Shown here piece by piece: positions 56,836 to 62,664 of a DNA stretch of 64,000 nt. The stretch spans positions 1 through 64,000 of the forward strand of contig NZ_FMKA01000007.1 in the NCBI RefSeq assembly GCF_900096945.1, in the 5' to 3' direction. Source of the stretch: Anaerobium acetethylicum. GTDB taxonomy: Bacteria; Bacillota; Clostridia; Lachnospirales; Lachnospiraceae. The notes beneath the pieces were generated by a model. The model saw nothing but the letters and a program-made list of their open reading frames with translations, made no database searches and was not told the origin of the DNA. Within the stretch, counting starts at the first letter, position 1, and each line of letters begins with the position of its first letter. The position numbers and the translations under genes were made by a program.

Positions 56836-57765
56836 TCAGGTAAAATAATCCAATACCCGCATGGCTCTGAGCGTATTCCAGCGGCTGACCGTTCCAGCCT
56901 GCTCCATTTCAAAATGCACTGCCGAACCCGGATAATGTGCCGGTATTTTCCAGCGGCCATCACTTGTGCGTTTTTTACAGACCACATCCAGTGCCTCCTG
57001 CATTCTTGCATCGTAGGGAGCCTCCGCTTTACGGAGATACTCCAGTGCACGCAGAATATCGTATCTCCAGCGTGTCGGATATGCCATATGGAGCATGTCA
57101 GGATTGATAATTTCGCCTGTTCTGTCAGACCGGAATAAATGATGCCGGAGAAGGAATTCTCGTGCTTCCATTTCAATCCCGGTCAGCTCTTCCCGCCTGT
57201 AGCCGTACCCTTGAAGGATATACTCCATGATCCCCTCAAGCGTGTTAATTGTCGTATGCATGGAACTATGTCTGGCCCCGGACCTGTTCAGCAGACAATT
57301 GAAGGCGCCATCCTTCATCTGCTGGCTTATCACAAAATCCACGACGGACTTTATCTTTTCTTCCTCCAGGCCAAAATAACATGCATAGTTCAAAAACATT
57401 CCATTGATGCACAGATCACTTTGCGGCACGCTCACAAAACCGTTTATGCTGCCATCCGCAGCCTTGCAGGTCTCTACTATGGCATCAAGGGCTTTCGTTA
57501 TTTCTGCAGTACACGGGGCACATAGATTTCTCAAATCAAGAAGCGTATAATTGGTCGATGTCCATTTTGGCTGGTAAAAAGCCTTACCCCAGTGGCCTTC
57601 CGGATGCTGCCTTTTCAGAAACTCATATCCCCAGCCTTCTGTCGCTATCCTTTTCTTTAACGGAATCAATATGTCCGGCTCTGATTTCAATAAATCCCGA
57701 TGCGTCTGGTATTGGATTGACACATCACCTTCCAGCAGCCAGCTGACAATCTCATTTCGTTCCAT
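56836..57765 (-). CDS. Alpha/alpha-toroid protein (prenyltransferase/squalene-cyclase fold)
   Basis: 309 aa from MERNEIVSWLLEGD, behind GAGGAGGCGGG. It is all-helical with repeated cyclase-like segments (FLKRQHPEGHWGKAFYQPKWTS, KAADGSINGFVSVP, SQQMKDGAFNCLLNR, KKRTSDGRWKIPAHYPG). The QxxDGxW-like turns mark alpha/alpha toroids of squalene cyclases and prenyltransferase beta subunits. The DxDD motif of terpene cyclases is not seen, so it is probably not a canonical cyclase. It is in a cluster with a GyrI-like protein and a second toroid protein. Function unknown. Confidence 0.75.
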   Translation of the reverse strand: MERNEIVSWLLEGDVSIQYQTHRDLLKSEPDILIPLKKRIATEGWGYEFLKRQHPEGHWGKAFYQPKWTSTNYTLLDLRNLCAPCTAEITKALDAIVETCKAADGSINGFVSVPQSDLCINGMFLNYACYFGLEEEKIKSVVDFVISQQMKDGAFNCLLNRSGARHSSMHTTINTLEGIMEYILQGYGYRREELTGIEMEAREFLLRHHLFRSDRTGEIINPDMLHMAYPTRWRYDILRALEYLRKAEAPYDARMQEALDVVCKKRTSDGRWKIPAHYPGSAVHFEMEQAGTVSRWNTLRAMRVLDYFT

Positions 57766-57832
57766 ATCCCGCCTCCTCGTCCGATCTTCCATTTTCCGAA
57801 CTGATATCGTGACTGGTCAAAACTCTTCATGA

Positions 57833-58507: not shown

Positions 58508-58550
58508 TGGTACCTGACACCATAAACTGCAGTTTATGGTGTCAGGTACC
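58508..58550. repeat. GGTACC hairpin repeat, complete copy
   Basis: TGGTACCTGACACCATAAAC and its mirror, with a perfect CTGCAG centre. Confidence 0.9.
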
Positions 58551-58574: not shown

Positions 58575-59399
58575 TTATTTACTCCCCATATTCCTGACGA
58601 TTTCCAGATATCTCTCCGTGGCCGCTTCCGACGGTTCGCCCTTCCTGCAGATATCCAGCTTCTCCAGCTTGCGGTTCGGCCGTTCGACAATCAGCCTGCC
58701 GCTGCTGTCCAGCTTCCCCCTCAGGGCTGCAAACGCTTCCTTGAATCTCTTGTCCCTGCGGGCCTTCTCATAAAAAGAAAGCACATATACATAATAGAAC
58801 AGGTTGTATCTCAGAAACGGATACTCCACCTGCATGAACAGCGTCCCCATTCCATAATGGCAGGGACCGGTCGGCGCCCGGACAGTCCAATGGTCAAGAA
58901 GGGTTTCGACTGCCTGGTCAAGATCATGAGCCCCTTCGTTCATTCCCGCACACCGGAATGCGTCCAGGGCGAGAAGGGTTACCCCGGGATTTGAAAAATC
59001 CGTTTCCGGACCTCGTCCGAACAGGAATTTGCTGCATCTCCAGCCTCCATCTTCAAATCTGTTGGAAAGGAGGTATTCCAGCACCTTCTTTACGCGCTCG
59101 TCACCGGCATATCCGTTTCTGTACAGGGCTGCAGCCGCAAGCGCCATCTGGCAGGGATAGATGGAGCCCTTCGGCGAAATGCGCACCCGCCCATCATCCC
59201 TTATGGCCTGAAGGACCAGCTCCGCCGCCCCCTGGAGCGCTTCATGAGACTTATCTACTTTCAATTCACTCATGATCAACAGGGCTGTCAGGGTGCTGAT
59301 TGGCTTTTCTATGCCAATCCGCCCGTCTGGTGTCGCCCAAAAATCCGCGCCATTATCATGTCGTGTTGCGAGAATCTTTTCCAGGTCTGTTTCATACAT
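58575..59399 (-). CDS. Second alpha/alpha-toroid protein
   Basis: About 274 aa from ATG 59399 with GGTGA before it; TTG 59411 or GTG 59408 behind AAAGG are alternatives. Toroid repeats: VLQAIRDDGRVRISPKGSIYPC, LLSNRFEDGGWRCSKFLFGRG (with QxxDGxW-like DGGW), LDHWTVRAPTGPCHYG. As in the other toroid protein no DxDD is seen. The paired Cys/His pattern (CSKFLFGRG ... CHYGMGT) recalls zinc-containing prenyltransferase subunits but is not conclusive. It is downstream of no obvious promoter and precedes the GyrI-like gene with a repeat between. Confidence 0.72.
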   Translation of the reverse strand: MYETDLEKILATRHDNGADFWATPDGRIGIEKPISTLTALLIMSELKVDKSHEALQGAAELVLQAIRDDGRVRISPKGSIYPCQMALAAAALYRNGYAGDERVKKVLEYLLSNRFEDGGWRCSKFLFGRGPETDFSNPGVTLLALDAFRCAGMNEGAHDLDQAVETLLDHWTVRAPTGPCHYGMGTLFMQVEYPFLRYNLFYYVYVLSFYEKARRDKRFKEAFAALRGKLDSSGRLIVERPNRKLEKLDICRKGEPSEAATERYLEIVRNMGSK

Positions 59400-59507
59400 G
59401 CTGTTCACCAATACCTTTCAAATGATTTTAGGATTTCTTTCCGTCACTTCTATCCATGATTCTGTTATACACCTGCATGACTTTCGGCGCAATGGTTTTC
59501 CTGTTTA

Positions 59508-59562
59508 TGGTGTCAGGTACCTCTCCACGTTACCGCATTAAATCAGTGCGGTACCAGGTACC
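59508..59562. repeat. Degenerate GGTACC repeat
   Basis: Half copy TGGTGTCAGGTACC (59508-59521) and a GCGGTACCAGGTACC palindrome (59549-59562), with flanking GTTACCGCATTAA / GGTAACGCATTAA direct-and-inverted copies. Confidence 0.75.
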
Positions 59563-59597: not shown

Positions 59598-59642
59598 TTG
59601 AAATTTTAATCGTTGTATTATACAATCATATCATGCAACGAT
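59598..59642 (+). promoter_or_regulatory. Promoter and MarR-type operator of the MarR-B12-ABC operon
   Basis: TTGAAA (59598-59603), 17-bp spacer, TACAAT (59621-59626). Over the -10 lies the palindrome TTGTATTATACAA (59613-59625), and an outer inverted repeat ATCGTTG / CAACGAT (59609-59615 and 59636-59642). Autorepression by the first gene product is likely. Confidence 0.8.
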
Positions 59643-59665
59643 CACAAAAATAGCGAGGTGAAACT

Positions 59666-60076
59666 ATGTTCATATGTGATATCAGCGTGTTTAACAAGTA
59701 CGGGAAACAGAAGCTGGATGAAATGCTCTGTCCGCTCAAAGTCGACTGGCGCGAGCTTGTCGTGATGCTTGTCCTCGAACAGGTTCCGGGGATGGGGCAG
59801 GCTCTTTTAATTCCATTTCTGCAGACCGATAAAGCAAATGTAACAAAGCTGCTCCAGATGATGGAGAAAAAAGGGCTGATCAGACGCGAGACAGATGCAG
59901 CCGATCAGCGGAACAAGACCTGCCATCTGGCGGATCAGGGACATCTGCTGATCCCTAAGCTGCATGAGACTCTCGCGCTCTGGGAAGCGGCCTGCTTCAA
60001 TGGCCTTACCAAAGAGGAAATTCAGCAGTTCCAGAGAACCAGCGAAATCATCACCCGGAACCTGGTTAGGGATTAG
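59666..60076 (+). CDS. MarR-family transcriptional regulator
   Basis: 136 aa, start follows GAGGTGA. Winged-helix core about 30-100: LVLEQVPGMGQALLIPFLQTDKANVTKLLQMMEKKGLIRRETDAADQ, with the MarR wing signature (RRExDxxDxRxK). First gene of a four-gene operon whose promoter carries palindromes over the -10 site. It is likely the repressor of its own operon. The next gene begins about 70 bp downstream. Confidence 0.92.
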   Translation: MFICDISVFNKYGKQKLDEMLCPLKVDWRELVVMLVLEQVPGMGQALLIPFLQTDKANVTKLLQMMEKKGLIRRETDAADQRNKTCHLADQGHLLIPKLHETLALWEAACFNGLTKEEIQQFQRTSEIITRNLVRD

Positions 60077-60144
60077 AAGGCCGCAAAATGGCAATTTCAT
60101 CATGTTTTACGACTAAACAAGAAAGCGAAAGAAGAGGTGTCGAA

Positions 60145-60804
60145 ATGAACAAGAATCTAATGGACTTCCTAAGCATCATCGAAACTGAAAATCGTTATAA
60201 AGCGCTGCAGTTTGTCCTGGACAGACTGGAAAAGAAGGAGCTTTCCATCCTGGAGGTATACGAGGAAATCCTGGCCCCGGCCCTGAACCTTATGGTGCCC
60301 TCGGAAAATGAAAATGTAGATATCTGGAAGGAACACGTCAGAACCTCCATCATCAAAACGATCCTGGAGAATGCCTATCCCTATGTCATGAAGGAAAAAG
60401 AGGAAAAGGGCATCTCCATCAGCAAGACCGTGGCAGTGCTCTGTCCCCCGGAGGAATATCACAATGTGGGGGCCCGCATGGTCACCGATATTTTGACGAT
60501 TTTGGGCTATGACGCGATTTTCGTGGACAGCAACACGCCGCTGCGGGTGATCGAAGCTGGAATGGACATCCGGAAAATCGATTGCATCGCCATCAGCATC
60601 TCCAATCCCTATCATCTGGTTTCCACAAGGGATATCATAGAGGCGGTCCGCAAGAAGGATGCTTCCGTAAAAATCATCGTGGGTGGAAATGCAATCAAGA
60701 AAGCTGGCTCCCACGCCGATCTTCTCAAGGCCGACTATATCGTGACATCCTTAAAAGAACTGGAAAACCTGGAAGGAGGAACCTCTCATGAAACTATCAT
60801 TTAA
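60145..60804 (+). CDS. Cobalamin-binding-domain protein
   Basis: 219 aa from MNKNLMDFLS, behind AGAGGTG. An N-terminal helical cap about 1-90 (VYEEILAPALNLMVP, WKEHVRTSII) is followed by a B12-binding Rossmann domain about 93-215. Base-off motif is EYHNVG (E104, H106, G109; DxHxxG with Glu for Asp), followed by SIS near 151 and GG at 170-171. This is the layout of MtaC-like corrinoid proteins and of CarH-type B12 sensors, but there is no methyltransferase and no fused DNA-binding domain. It overlaps the permease gene by 17 bp. A sensor or regulator role for B12, light or redox next to an ABC exporter is inferred. Confidence 0.85.
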   Translation: MNKNLMDFLSIIETENRYKALQFVLDRLEKKELSILEVYEEILAPALNLMVPSENENVDIWKEHVRTSIIKTILENAYPYVMKEKEEKGISISKTVAVLCPPEEYHNVGARMVTDILTILGYDAIFVDSNTPLRVIEAGMDIRKIDCIAISISNPYHLVSTRDIIEAVRKKDASVKIIVGGNAIKKAGSHADLLKADYIVTSLKELENLEGGTSHETII

Positions 60805-61945
60805 CATTGCCCTTCGTTTTTTAAACTCCAGCAAGGGGCAGACCTTCCTTATTGCACTGGGCATCGCAATCGGCGTCTCTGTCCAGATTTTCATAGGCTC
60901 TCTCATCCAGGGCCTGCAGATAGATCTGGTGGACACCACCATCGGGAGCCAGCCTCAGATCACCATCACGAGCACTTCAGATGACAAACTCATCGGCGAC
61001 TACGAGTCCCGGCTTTCAGATATTTCTTCAGACTATGAAGGCGTGAAACATGTTTCTCCGTCTGCTGACGGACCTGCCCTGGTCACTTCCGACGAAGAAA
61101 ACTACAGCATCCTCGTCCGCGGCCTTTCCTTCGAAGCTGCAGAAGGGATCTATAAAACAAAAGAACGCCTGGTGGAAGGTTCCCTGCCAGAAAACAAAAA
61201 TGAAGTCCTGATCGGAACGACGCTCAAGGATGAATCAGGCATCCAAATCGGGGATGAGGTAGATGTCCTGACAAGCTCCGGCGAAAACCAGGCGCTGACC
61301 GTCACCGGCATCTTCGACTTCCAGGTGGCAAACCTGAACAGTTCCTGGGTGCTCACCACCCTGGAGACCGCCCAGTCCATGTTCTCCTATGACGACCGGA
61401 TCACCGGCATCGAAATGCAGGTGGAGGACGTGTTCCTTGCAGATACCATTTCATCCGACATCCAGGCAGACCTCCCCGAGGACCTTCTGGCTGAAAACTG
61501 GAAAGACCAGAACGCATCCCTCCTGAGCGGCCTGAATGGCCAGAGCGTCTCCAGCTACATGATCCAGGTATTCGTCATGATTTCCGTGCTCCTTGGCATC
61601 GCCAGCGTCCTGGCCATCACCGTAGTTCAGAAATCCAGACAGATCGGCATCCTCAAGGCAATGGGAATCCGCGACAGCGCAGCCAGTCTGATTTTCGTCT
61701 TCCAGGGCCTCATGCTGGGAATTGCCGGCGCGATCCTTGGAATTTTATTAGGCCTGGGGCTTGCCTATGTCTTCACCCGTTTTGCCCTGAACCCCGACGG
61801 CACGCCAGTCGTACCACTCTACATCAATCCAGGATTTATTGCACTGTCTGCAGGGTTTGCAATCGTGGTTTCCACACTGGCCGCCCTCATTCCCGCAAGA
61901 AAATCCTCTAAACTGAATCCAATCGAGGTGATCCGAAATGCGTAA
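60788..61945 (+). CDS. MacB/FtsX-type ABC transporter permease
   Basis: 385 aa. One N-terminal helix (LSFNIALRFL ... IALGIAIGVSVQIFIGSLIQG), a large extracytoplasmic domain about 40-250, then three helices with the FtsX core (QVFVMISVLLGIASVLAITVVQKSRQIGILKAMGIRD, LGIAGAILGILLGLGLAYVF, LSAGFAIVVSTLAALIPARKSSKLNPIEVIRNA). Start follows GGAAGGAGG and overlaps the B12-protein end. Such proteins work as mechanotransmission exporters, not importers; the substrate may be a lipoprotein, peptide or drug. Confidence 0.93.
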   Translation: MKLSFNIALRFLNSSKGQTFLIALGIAIGVSVQIFIGSLIQGLQIDLVDTTIGSQPQITITSTSDDKLIGDYESRLSDISSDYEGVKHVSPSADGPALVTSDEENYSILVRGLSFEAAEGIYKTKERLVEGSLPENKNEVLIGTTLKDESGIQIGDEVDVLTSSGENQALTVTGIFDFQVANLNSSWVLTTLETAQSMFSYDDRITGIEMQVEDVFLADTISSDIQADLPEDLLAENWKDQNASLLSGLNGQSVSSYMIQVFVMISVLLGIASVLAITVVQKSRQIGILKAMGIRDSAASLIFVFQGLMLGIAGAILGILLGLGLAYVFTRFALNPDGTPVVPLYINPGFIALSAGFAIVVSTLAALIPARKSSKLNPIEVIRNA

Positions 61946-62618
61946 TGTGATAGAACTGAAAAAAATAAACAAGATCTACGGCAGCCAGGTCAAGACCCAG
62001 GTTCTGTTTGACCTGGACCTGGCCATCGAGGAAGGCAGCTTCAACTCCATCATCGGGCAGTCCGGAAGCGGAAAAAGCACCCTGCTGAATATCATCGGCA
62101 CCCTGGACCAGCCCACAGACGGCGAGGTCTACATCAACGGAAAAAGGACCGACCAGATGAACAAAAATGAACTGGCCACTCTGAGAAACGAGACCATCGG
62201 ATTCATTTTCCAGTTCCACTACCTTCTCCCGGAATTCACCGCTCTGGAGAACGTCCTGATGCCTTACCGCATCCAGTACGGCAAGGTCCCGGCGGACAAG
62301 CTGAAAAGAGCCAATGAACTCATGGCTCTGGTGGGGCTCGAAAAAGTCAAGAACAACAAAGCAACCAATATGTCCGGCGGACAGCAGCAGCGTACTGCTA
62401 TCGCCAGAGCCCTCATGAACAGCCCCAAAATCATCCTGGCCGACGAGCCTACGGGAAATCTGGACTCGGAAACCACTGAGACCGTATACAATCTGCTCCG
62501 GGACATCAACAAAGAAATGGGCACCACCTTCATCATCATCACCCATGACCGGCGCATCGCAGAGACGGCGGACCGCATCATTGAGATTAAGGACGGCAGG
62601 ATCGCGCTGGATATCTAA
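61938..62618 (+). CDS. LolD/MacB-type ABC transporter ATP-binding protein
   Basis: 226 aa. Walker A GQSGSGKSTLL, Q-loop FQFHYLLPEF, signature MSGGQQQRTAIARAL, Walker B IILADEPTGNLDSET, H-loop IITHDRR. The start has GAGGTGATCC upstream and overlaps the permease stop by 8 bp. It powers the permease as a dimer. A GGTACC hairpin repeat lies right after the stop. Confidence 0.95.
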   Translation: MRNVIELKKINKIYGSQVKTQVLFDLDLAIEEGSFNSIIGQSGSGKSTLLNIIGTLDQPTDGEVYINGKRTDQMNKNELATLRNETIGFIFQFHYLLPEFTALENVLMPYRIQYGKVPADKLKRANELMALVGLEKVKNNKATNMSGGQQQRTAIARALMNSPKIILADEPTGNLDSETTETVYNLLRDINKEMGTTFIIITHDRRIAETADRIIEIKDGRIALDI

Positions 62619-62620
62619 AT

Positions 62621-62664
62621 TGGTACCTGACACCATAAACTGGAGTTTATGGTGTCAGGTACCA
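62621..62664. repeat. GGTACC hairpin repeat, complete copy
   Basis: TGGTACCTGACACCATAAAC and its mirror around TGGA, two bases after the ATPase stop codon. Confidence 0.9.

Follow-up and report, generated by a model that had tools for sequence, protein, structure and literature searches.

To our knowledge, the familiar B12 sensors pass on their signal by way of a DNA-binding domain, a cyclase or a similar module, or else by acting on a repressor partner. Among the described systems closest to the locus considered here, photocobilins are reported to contain a biliverdin-binding domain, to which AbDPcob adds a diguanylate cyclase (PMC11796333, PMC10979010), and AerR is a stand-alone B12 protein acting on the repressor CrtJ (PMC9144470). 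The light signature published for B12 photoreceptors consists of the motifs GxxW, EH, GxxH and GxxxP; in HaAI-2E (WP_052573826), a cobalamin-binding domain and a cyclase are combined with an AI-2E exporter domain, Arg replaces the His that would ligate cobalt, and its authors employ the protein as a negative control without the light signature (PMC11796333). In the literature searched, which takes in few subscription journals, we found no description of a gene set made up of a B12 protein, a permease and an ATPase. Such a set is present in a 64,000-nt stretch (the window) of a genome of Anaerobium acetethylicum that is listed with 4.52% contamination.

The four genes of the locus lie on one strand (Table 1), and the tight operon described in an earlier note on this DNA is exact with regard to the 17-nt overlap between the B12 and permease genes and the 8-nt overlap between the permease and ATPase genes; the MarR and B12 genes are separated by a 68-nt gap, so that overlaps are found at two of the three junctions. 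As the same note had it, no methyltransferase gene was recognised among the window neighbours scanned, nor was a gene for a MacA/HlyD-type adaptor. The label 'MacB-type' for the exporter has been replaced by LolC/E-like, which fits better in the NCBIfam, PDB sequence and fold comparisons. The predicted fold of the permease is closest to LolE (Z 32.8) and LolC (28.7), followed by HrtB (21.6) and MacB (19.9), and its nearest PDB sequences are those of LolF; by both fold and sequence it belongs with the LolC/LolE/LolF family, with a score of 178.2 bits against NCBIfam TIGR02212 that stays below the cut-off of 362.45.

Table 1. Features of the B12 protein-transporter locus in the window.
Feature	Positions	Strand	Remarks
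Sigma-70-like promoter, TTGAAA-17-TACAAT	59598..59626	+	10/12 matches
Palindromic operator-like site, ATCGTTG-N20-CAACGAT	59609..59642	+	7-nt arms exact
MarR-family regulator, 136 aa	59666..60076	+	PF01047, 40.4 bits
Sensor-type stand-alone B12-binding protein (helical cap and Rossmann domain), 219 aa	60145..60804	+	start taken at 60145
Codons of W61-K62-E63-H64 (EH motif of B12 photoreceptors)	60325..60336	+	W, E and H in 76/76
Codons of E104-Y-H106-N-V-G109 (lower-axial His motif)	60454..60471	+	E104 and H106 in 76/76; G109 in 75/76
LolC/E-like (FtsX/MacB_PCD) ABC permease, 385 aa	60788..61945	+	17-nt overlap with B12 gene
LolD-like ABC ATPase, 226 aa	61938..62618	+	8-nt overlap with permease; TIGR02211, 264.4 bits (cut-off 307.75)
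20-pair stem palindrome followed by T-rich tail	62621..62664	+	probable terminator

Both the promoter and the palindrome reported earlier are present and overlap each other, the inner TTGTATTATACAA of the palindrome (59613-59625) reaching into the -10 element. Promoter-like sites in the region number two against a shuffle mean of 3.5, so that the promoter is weak evidence alone, and in the palindrome search 24 of 100 window shuffles gave a hit with two mismatches or fewer. The putative operator is better supported by the inner half of the palindrome, TTGTATNATACAA, two tandem copies of which stand directly 5' of the close MarR homologue at locus L186 and which occurs in none of the other loci (187 compared, window copies aside); the MarR protein may bind at 59609-59642. 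At the other end of the locus, the palindrome behind the ATPase gene belongs to a repeat that is dispersed over the genome. Control by a B12 riboswitch was rejected, as scans of the window and of 35 loci gave no cobalamin riboswitch match at the Rfam gathering score.

The MarR gene itself is a local accessory outside the conserved core. It has a single close homologue among 291 genomes of the class, located 0.8 Mb from the cassette of its own genome, and with a small MarR profile, a MarR gene no more than 150 nt from the cassette turned up in just two of 84 other loci. MarR was consequently rejected as a conserved partner, and the earlier proposal that the MarR repressor is modulated by the B12 protein is not supported. 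A gene behind the MarR homologue in genome G470 had seemed TspO-like by eye; no match came from comparisons with Pfam, NCBIfam and PDB sequences, and the porphyrin link through that gene was dropped.

The conserved core is a three-gene cassette encoding the stand-alone B12-binding protein, the LolC/E-like permease and the LolD-like ATPase. Conservation was counted over 84 related loci, 82 of them with 400 nt or more of sequence downstream, and the relatives kept for analysis were the best 80 of 208. In 80 of these 82, the permease gene is the next one after the B12 gene, and in 75 of the 80 the ATPase gene comes third, the contigs of the remaining five ending 0-264 nt past the permease gene. 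Of the four-gene order put up for comparison in the earlier note, the B12, permease and ATPase genes are conserved and MarR is not. The reading frames of the B12 protein and the permease overlap at 63 of the 80 loci (by 4 nt in 50 and by 17 nt, as in the window, in nine) and are no more than 30 nt apart in 15 others, and the permease and ATPase genes overlap by 8 nt in 54 of 74 loci. The B12 proteins form a single clade (39 of 39 rows, 100/100 support, in a tree of every second cluster whose bootstrap was not fully settled).

Viewed from the side of the transporter, the permease (E ≤ 1e-50) was found in 20 of 391 genomes of the class, of which 16 also have the B12 gene, beside the permease in 15 and on a separate contig in one (G447). 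The permeases of the other four genomes have no B12 gene, and two of them (G648 and G667) adjoin HlyD genes. In two archaeal loci the B12 gene is paired with a giant surface protein instead of the transporter. The distance correlation is weak for the B12 protein and permease (rho 0.33) compared to the permease and ATPase (0.70), which, like these exceptions, counts against the sensor-subunit reading given below. Carriers include Clostridia, Mycoplasmatota, Thermotogota, Chloroflexota and archaea, Asgards among them; many are metagenome bins, as are all the archaeal ones, and one record (L146) is flagged UNVERIFIED_CONTAM. No relatives came from genome contigs scanned with a single sequence, from viral contigs scanned with an alignment or from phages, and plasmids yielded only matches of 24-26% in seven records.

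The earlier note had named a B12 gene usually found beside methyltransferases as an arrangement that would speak against a link with the exporter. The reverse was observed: at 80 of the 82 loci open to this comparison, ABC genes adjoin the B12 gene, and genes of methyltransferase type seldom lie beside it, URO-D occurring in three of 114 immediate neighbours scanned (among the first 25 of 129 families listed). This distribution supports the suggestion made there that the B12 protein may modulate the exporter. Since the other neighbours are diverse among the families listed, the transporter is the sole constant partner of the B12 protein. The B12 protein could nevertheless act in the manner of AerR on a DNA-binding partner, MarR in the window and XRE-B12 proteins or others elsewhere, so that only transcription of the exporter would be under B12 or light control. 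The action of AerR on CrtJ provides a precedent (PMC9144470), the AerR fold is related (see below), and regulators do occur near some cassettes, namely, a MarR protein at L082, at L119 and in the window, and divergent XRE-B12 proteins at five loci. However, no regulator family is conserved beside the cassette among the neighbours listed, in contrast to the constant transporter, and the nearest upstream neighbours lie on the same strand in 37 cases versus 30 on the opposite one; we consider this route unlikely.

The predicted structure of the B12 protein (pLDDT 94.8) is closest to the photocobilin 8j2w (Z 24.2, rmsd 2.3, 203 residues aligned) and to CtMerR (8jbt, Z 21.1), with MetH (20.6) and a corrinoid protein (20.2) close behind the photoreceptors, followed by AerR (7te2, 19.1) and the SCHIC domain of AppA (18.7). 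Pfam recognised only PF02310 in the 219 residues and no MerR DNA-binding domain, and the CarH model matched only at its positions 115-271, with 28.6 bits against a cut-off of 400. The cap and Rossmann domain take up the entire protein, and a biliverdin-binding domain is absent. The B12-binding_2 cap domain PF02607 was not detected at E 0.01 in the 219-aa protein, whereas a corrinoid protein of the same genome (L187) has it at 78.4 bits. Residues E63, H64, E104, H106, T131, P132 and G181 are invariant in 76 family members, and the 219-aa protein probably binds cobalamin. The EYHNVG motif noted previously is indeed present at residues 104-109, but its Glu, singled out then as a substitution for Asp, is the family norm (76/76).

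Two other assignments of the B12 module deserve consideration. The protein might load or receive corrinoid while the ABC pair moves corrinoid or a derivative across the membrane, consistent with its nearly invariable company of the cassette transporter and with the URO-D-like or MetF-like genes close to some loci. Given the riboswitch scan, negative for the window and 35 loci, a permease fold nearest to LolC/E and the invariance of the photosensor EH motif, we find corrinoid handling quite improbable. Alternatively, the domain might bind heme in the manner of SCHIC, in place of cobalamin, and report it to an HrtBA-like heme exporter. PefR is a MarR-type regulator. In streptococci, pefRCD brings the gene of a regulator together with a heme exporter (PMC4837585), and the resemblances to the AppA SCHIC domain and HrtB point the same way. 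Yet the His keeps the register of B12 proteins (ExHxxG), EH and G181 are invariant, the SCHIC His is described as shifted by two residues (PMC9144470), and the LolC/E matches of the permease are far stronger than those of HrtB, which makes heme binding very hard to credit.

The CarH-type light signature is only partly represented in the family. GxxW, whose Trp (W131) caps the adenosyl group in CarH, is found in the photoreceptor register in none of the 76 members; ten places before E63, Trp occurs in one (L103) and the window has Ser. The Gly of GxxH is present in nine of 76 and GxxxP in 75, the window having D128 for the Gly. Neighbourhoods also bear on this question. Photolyase is encoded in 16 of 50 cassette genomes and absent from 34; among the 16, it directly follows the cassette in four and lies one gene upstream in the same run in two. 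At L119, the photolyase gene is 2.8 kb downstream of the cassette, and at L070 it is 4.5 kb upstream with a phytoene synthase gene in between. Divergent XRE-B12 regulators adjoin L072, L074, L075, L077 and L079 (Pfam was run on two); L077 and L079 belong to the cultured Proteiniclasticum ruminis. Neighbourhoods with DUF2177, DUF1722 and photolyase resemble other light regulons; the neighbour names crtI (Amino_oxidase only in Pfam) and DUF523 are assigned tentatively, as is the term type VII. The genome of the window encodes no photolyase and no XRE-B12 protein of the cassette-neighbour type. The earlier suggestion of light control is accordingly favoured by a minority of neighbourhoods and by the predicted fold, and weakened by the partial signature and by the many genomes that have no photolyase.

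A pair of cap cysteines, C52 and C59 (-11 and -4 from the invariant Glu), divides the family: both are present in 51 of 76 members, neither in 22, including the window, and one in three, of which two carry both Cys one place off. When photolyase, XRE-B12 regulators and phytoene synthase in the fetched flanks are counted as light-linked, the inclusion of XRE-B12 being an assumption, such neighbours accompany nine of 22 clusters without the pair and none of 53 with it (Fisher p 4e-6), so that light may apply to a subset only, 53 of the 75 clusters being of the Cys-pair type. Shared descent could explain the association: on branches with support, only four pairs are independent of each other (p 1 by the sign test). 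The pair and its avoidance of light-linked genes would fit a protein that senses oxidants through these cysteines together with cobalamin, light being secondary or irrelevant; as a reading of most members, and with both Cys missing from the window, we judge this improbable as well.

The pairing of the B12 gene with a pump across many bacteria and some archaea suggests a B12-controlled pump that responds to light or redox. We give an even chance to the reading in which a LolC/E-type ABC transporter has the B12 protein as its own, B12-carrying sensor subunit, with a local MarR repressor added in the window. The fuller proposal, which is tentative and in our estimate falls somewhat short of even, is a cobalamin-gated ABC transporter of Bacteria and Archaea, including Asgards, in which a sensor subunit related to CarH and photocobilins directly controls the exporter, in response to light in members without the Cys pair, such as that of the window, and to redox in Cys-pair members. 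In the even-chance reading, the 219-aa protein would be a CarH/photocobilin-type cobalamin sensor devoid of a DNA-binding domain, made in step with the permease (probably a homodimer) and the ATPase, and would most likely dock on them. A change in the state of the bound cobalamin, whether adenosylcobalamin is photolysed or the redox state or a ligand is altered, would move the helical cap and thereby switch the transporter, which would then extract a lipophilic compound lodged in the membrane; as the signal, light is the first candidate and redox the second, and a tetrapyrrole or damaged lipid would fit as substrate. In the window, the MarR repressor at 59609-59642 would add transcriptional control. 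If true, a membrane pump governed by a B12 sensor would represent a new output for the vitamin, offer a lead on the role of LolC/E-like pumps in monoderm bacteria and archaea, and possibly supply a light-switchable transporter as a tool.

The proposed sensor shares with each of the known systems some features and departs from all of them. The photocobilins SasPcob and AbDPcob (8j2w, 8j2x, 8j2y) have the nearest fold to the B12 module and are among the nearest by profile, the helical cap and Rossmann domain being common to both and the EH motifs aligned; unlike them, the 219-aa protein has no biliverdin domain, cyclase or GxxW, and it is encoded together with an ABC transporter. With CarH/LitR and CtMerR, the family shares EH (aligned to that of CtMerR), the lower-axial His, GxxxP and the two-domain B12 module, and some loci adjoin photolyase or phytoene synthase genes, but a MerR or other HTH domain is missing, the Trp of the W131 position is confined to L103, and the window has lost the Gly of GxxxP. 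Similar to AerR/PpaA, the protein is a stand-alone B12 fold without a DNA-binding domain, although its conserved partner is a transporter rather than a regulator among the neighbours listed. MtaC/MtbC-type corrinoid proteins differ in PF02607 and in the methyltransferase gene, which is not found beside the B12 gene among the window neighbours scanned. The permease has the fold of FtsX-type ABC systems, as in LolCDE/LolF, HrtBA and MacB; unlike these, the cassette has a B12 partner, contains no MacA-type adaptor and occurs in monoderm bacteria and archaea, and its permease and ATPase score below the NCBIfam LolCE and LolD cut-offs. HaAI-2E likewise joins a cobalamin-binding fold to a transporter-like membrane protein, but does so within a single fusion protein and with a different transporter family.

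Four genes occupy positions 59666-62618 of the window on one strand, downstream of a promoter-like site. The earlier note had described them as a tight operon preceded by a palindrome: the palindrome upstream of the MarR gene is real, and the overlaps of 17 nt and 8 nt are exact, but MarR is separated from the B12-binding gene by a gap of 68 nt. The conserved core of the system consists of the B12 protein, the permease and the ATPase, MarR not included. A close relative of the B12 protein (E < 1e-20) was found in 2 of 392 genomes of the order, namely, the window's own and G027, which contains the three core genes and lacks MarR, and a profile search recovered 15 further carriers among 391 genomes of the class (E <= 3.3e-37). 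Scanning a contig collection (84,980 species, per its description) with alignment A2 yielded 208 relatives, the best 80 of which, together with four loci that only the genome searches detected, constitute the set of 84 loci (75 clusters at 85% identity) compared here. Of the 82 loci that extend 400 nt or more past the B12 gene, 80 have the permease gene directly downstream in the same orientation, and the ATPase gene comes next in 75 of these 80, the remaining five sequences stopping 0-264 nt past the permease. In 63 of the 80 loci, the B12 reading frame runs into that of the permease (by 4 nt in 50 and by 17 nt in 9), and in 15 more the two are at most 30 nt apart. The permease itself was detected (E <= 1e-50) in 20 of the 391 class genomes, 16 of which also carry the B12 gene, in one case (G447) on a different contig; in the other four, the permease is an orphan (G549, G591) or is accompanied by an HlyD-type adaptor in place of the B12 protein (G648, G667).

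Judging by record titles, the cassette occurs in Clostridia, Acholeplasmataceae, Izemoplasmatales, Thermotogota, Dehalococcoidia, Lokiarchaeota, Sigynarchaeum, Thermoplasmata and Methanomassiliicoccaceae, all of the archaeal records being metagenome bins. Two loci break the permease rule: in L118 (Lokiarchaeota) and L123 (Bathyarchaeota), the B12 gene lies 3-6 nt after a gene for a protein of ~1920 aa. This protein shows weak matches to Ig-like domains and, on visual inspection, a transmembrane segment plus a cytoplasmic tail, and may be a further membrane protein with which the sensor pairs; L118 shares its bin with L104, which holds the usual cassette. In L092, an HD/YfbR-like domain is fused to the N-terminus of the B12 protein, with the permease and ATPase still downstream.

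Coordinates of the features in the window and in the compared loci
Feature	Location	Remark
MarR gene	window 59666-60076 (+)	Pfam MarR
B12-binding gene	window 60145-60804 (+)	Pfam B12-binding
Permease gene	window 60788-61945 (+)	Pfam FtsX plus MacB_PCD
ATPase gene	window 61938-62618 (+)	Pfam ABC_tran
Upstream protein	window 56836-57792	no family match in domain search
Second upstream protein	window 58575-59411	weak match only, squalene-hopene cyclase C-terminal domain (E 0.0037)
Palindromic repeat GGTACCTGACACCATAAACT...AGTTTATGGTGTCAGGTACC	window 58509-58550, 59502-59521, 62622-62663	flanks the operon
Two head-to-tail copies of TTGTATTATACAA	L186:5283-5308	immediately upstream of the G470 MarR homologue
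Genes for ~1920-aa proteins	L118:2220-7967, L123:414-6212	before the B12 gene; two archaeal bins
HD/YfbR-like fusion	L092:7413-8630	
Divergent XRE-B12 regulator	L072:1672-2529, L074:3-896, L075:6904-7782, L077:6907-7848, L079:6907-7821	Pfam on L072 and L075
Genes 3' of the cassette	L119:10554-14616	same strand

The sole close match to the window MarR among 291 class genomes, a protein in G470 with 60% identity, has two tandem copies of the inner half of the palindrome, TTGTATNATACAA, directly 5' of its gene. Because this sequence stands there and, copies of the window aside, at none of the other loci among the 187 compared, MarR most likely binds the palindrome upstream of its own gene. The gene behind the homologue in G470 encodes a 264-aa product with no family match. 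A second palindromic sequence, which flanks the operon, is a dispersed REP-like element: its half-site matches the window's genome 93 times in forward and 87 times in reverse orientation (at most two mismatches), and the reversed control not at all.

Phylogenetic analysis placed the cassette B12 proteins in one clade (39 of 39 rows, support 100/100), separate from the B12 domains of MetH-like and regulator type that were included; the tree sampled every second cluster, contains one other, very long-branched row and reached a bootstrap correlation of 0.988, just short of settled. Nine residues are invariant in 76 sequences (W61, E63, H64, P101, E104, H106, T131, P132 and G181). The structural model (69 sequences, pLDDT 94.8) is closest in fold to a photocobilin (Z 24.2), followed by CtMerR (21.1), MetH (20.6) and a methylamine corrinoid protein (20.2), these three being tied within 1 Z, and then by AerR (19.1), AppA (18.7) and CarH (18.3-18.5); the closest solved chains by sequence are CtMerR and photocobilins. 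In the window's 219-aa protein, no Pfam cap domain of the methyltransferase corrinoid type was detected, whereas it is present in the corrinoid protein of the same genome (L187). The published light signature comprises GxxW, EH, GxxH and GxxxP (PMC11796333). EH and the histidine are retained in all 76 cassette proteins and GxxxP in 75, the window (D128) being the sole exception; the Gly of GxxH is present in 9, a Trp at the W131 place in one (L103), and GxxW in the W131 register in none of the 76. Since the signature is only partly retained, a strict search with it would miss this family.

The cassette flanks are varied: no neighbour family is more frequent than ABC ATPases, which occur in 10 of 75 clusters, and no Pfam family accounts for more than 6 of 114 immediate neighbours. 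Light-linked genes recur nonetheless. A photolyase gene begins 12-21 nt past the ATPase gene in L073, L075, L077 and L079, which form one BLAST cluster (the L073 protein scores 505 bits against the class II model, cut-off 550); in L139, L151 and L065, another photolyase gene, followed by a 2-thiouracil desulfurase/DUF1722 gene, lies upstream of the B12 gene; L070 has photolyase and phytoene synthase genes upstream, and L119 a photolyase gene 2.8 kb downstream. The L119 genes 3' of the cassette encode a MarR regulator, a glyoxalase-family protein, two more products and the photolyase. Several relatives carry a divergent regulator in which a Cro/C1 (XRE) helix-turn-helix is joined to a cap and a B12-binding domain, resembling CarH but with a non-MerR DNA-binding domain. 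This protein, the window MarR and other regulators would provide transcription control specific to each lineage. Photolyase is present in 16 of 50 cassette genomes, and six of these 16 have it no more than 1 kb away from the cassette, where uniform placement predicts 0.02 genomes with a photolyase within 1.5 kb (chance 2e-4 counting only two independent arrangements). Counting against a link to light, 34 of the 50 genomes, and that of the window, have no photolyase.

The cap cysteines hint at a possible split. C52 and C59 (window numbering) are both Cys in 51 of 76 sequences, neither is in 22 and one is in 3, two of these three having both cysteines one place off. Light-linked neighbours accompany 9 of the 22 pair-less clusters (one of the 22 being L105, with a single Cys) but none of the 53 that have the pair (Fisher p 4e-6; 8 of 22 without counting L119). 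This association may reflect shared descent: a kinship-aware test found only four independent pairs on branches with support (sign test p 1). That pair-less members could be light sensors and Cys-pair members redox sensors is, on these counts, a lead. The pair is missing from the window protein, and of the five relatives closest to the window in the permease tree, three are flanked by light-linked genes.

The permease model (pLDDT 87.5) matches LolE (Z 32.8) and LolC (28.7), then the Streptococcus pneumoniae permease 5xu1 (26.2), YtrF (22.1), HrtB (21.6) and MacB (19.9); the closest PDB sequences are LolF, and the protein scores under the NCBIfam LolCE cut-off. Systems with the LolC/E fold extract lipophilic cargo from membranes. 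Because the transporter is its sole constant partner and the two are encoded in overlapping frames, the most likely role of the B12 protein is that of a sensor subunit within the pump. The protein is predicted to bind cobalamin, to form a complex with the transporter and to respond to a signal. A switch in cobalamin state, through photolysis or altered redox conditions, would shift the cap and thereby change pump activity. Gating of the transporter in this way is a bold reading.

The component parts are of known kinds, and the novelty appears to lie in the output to which the B12 sensor is coupled. No description of a B12 protein paired with a LolC/E-type transporter was found in the literature searched, and ABC transporters are not among the output domains listed in the mining section of PMC11796333. 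The nearest precedent is a negative-control protein in which an AI-2E exporter domain is joined to a cobalamin-binding fold without the histidine (PMC11796333).
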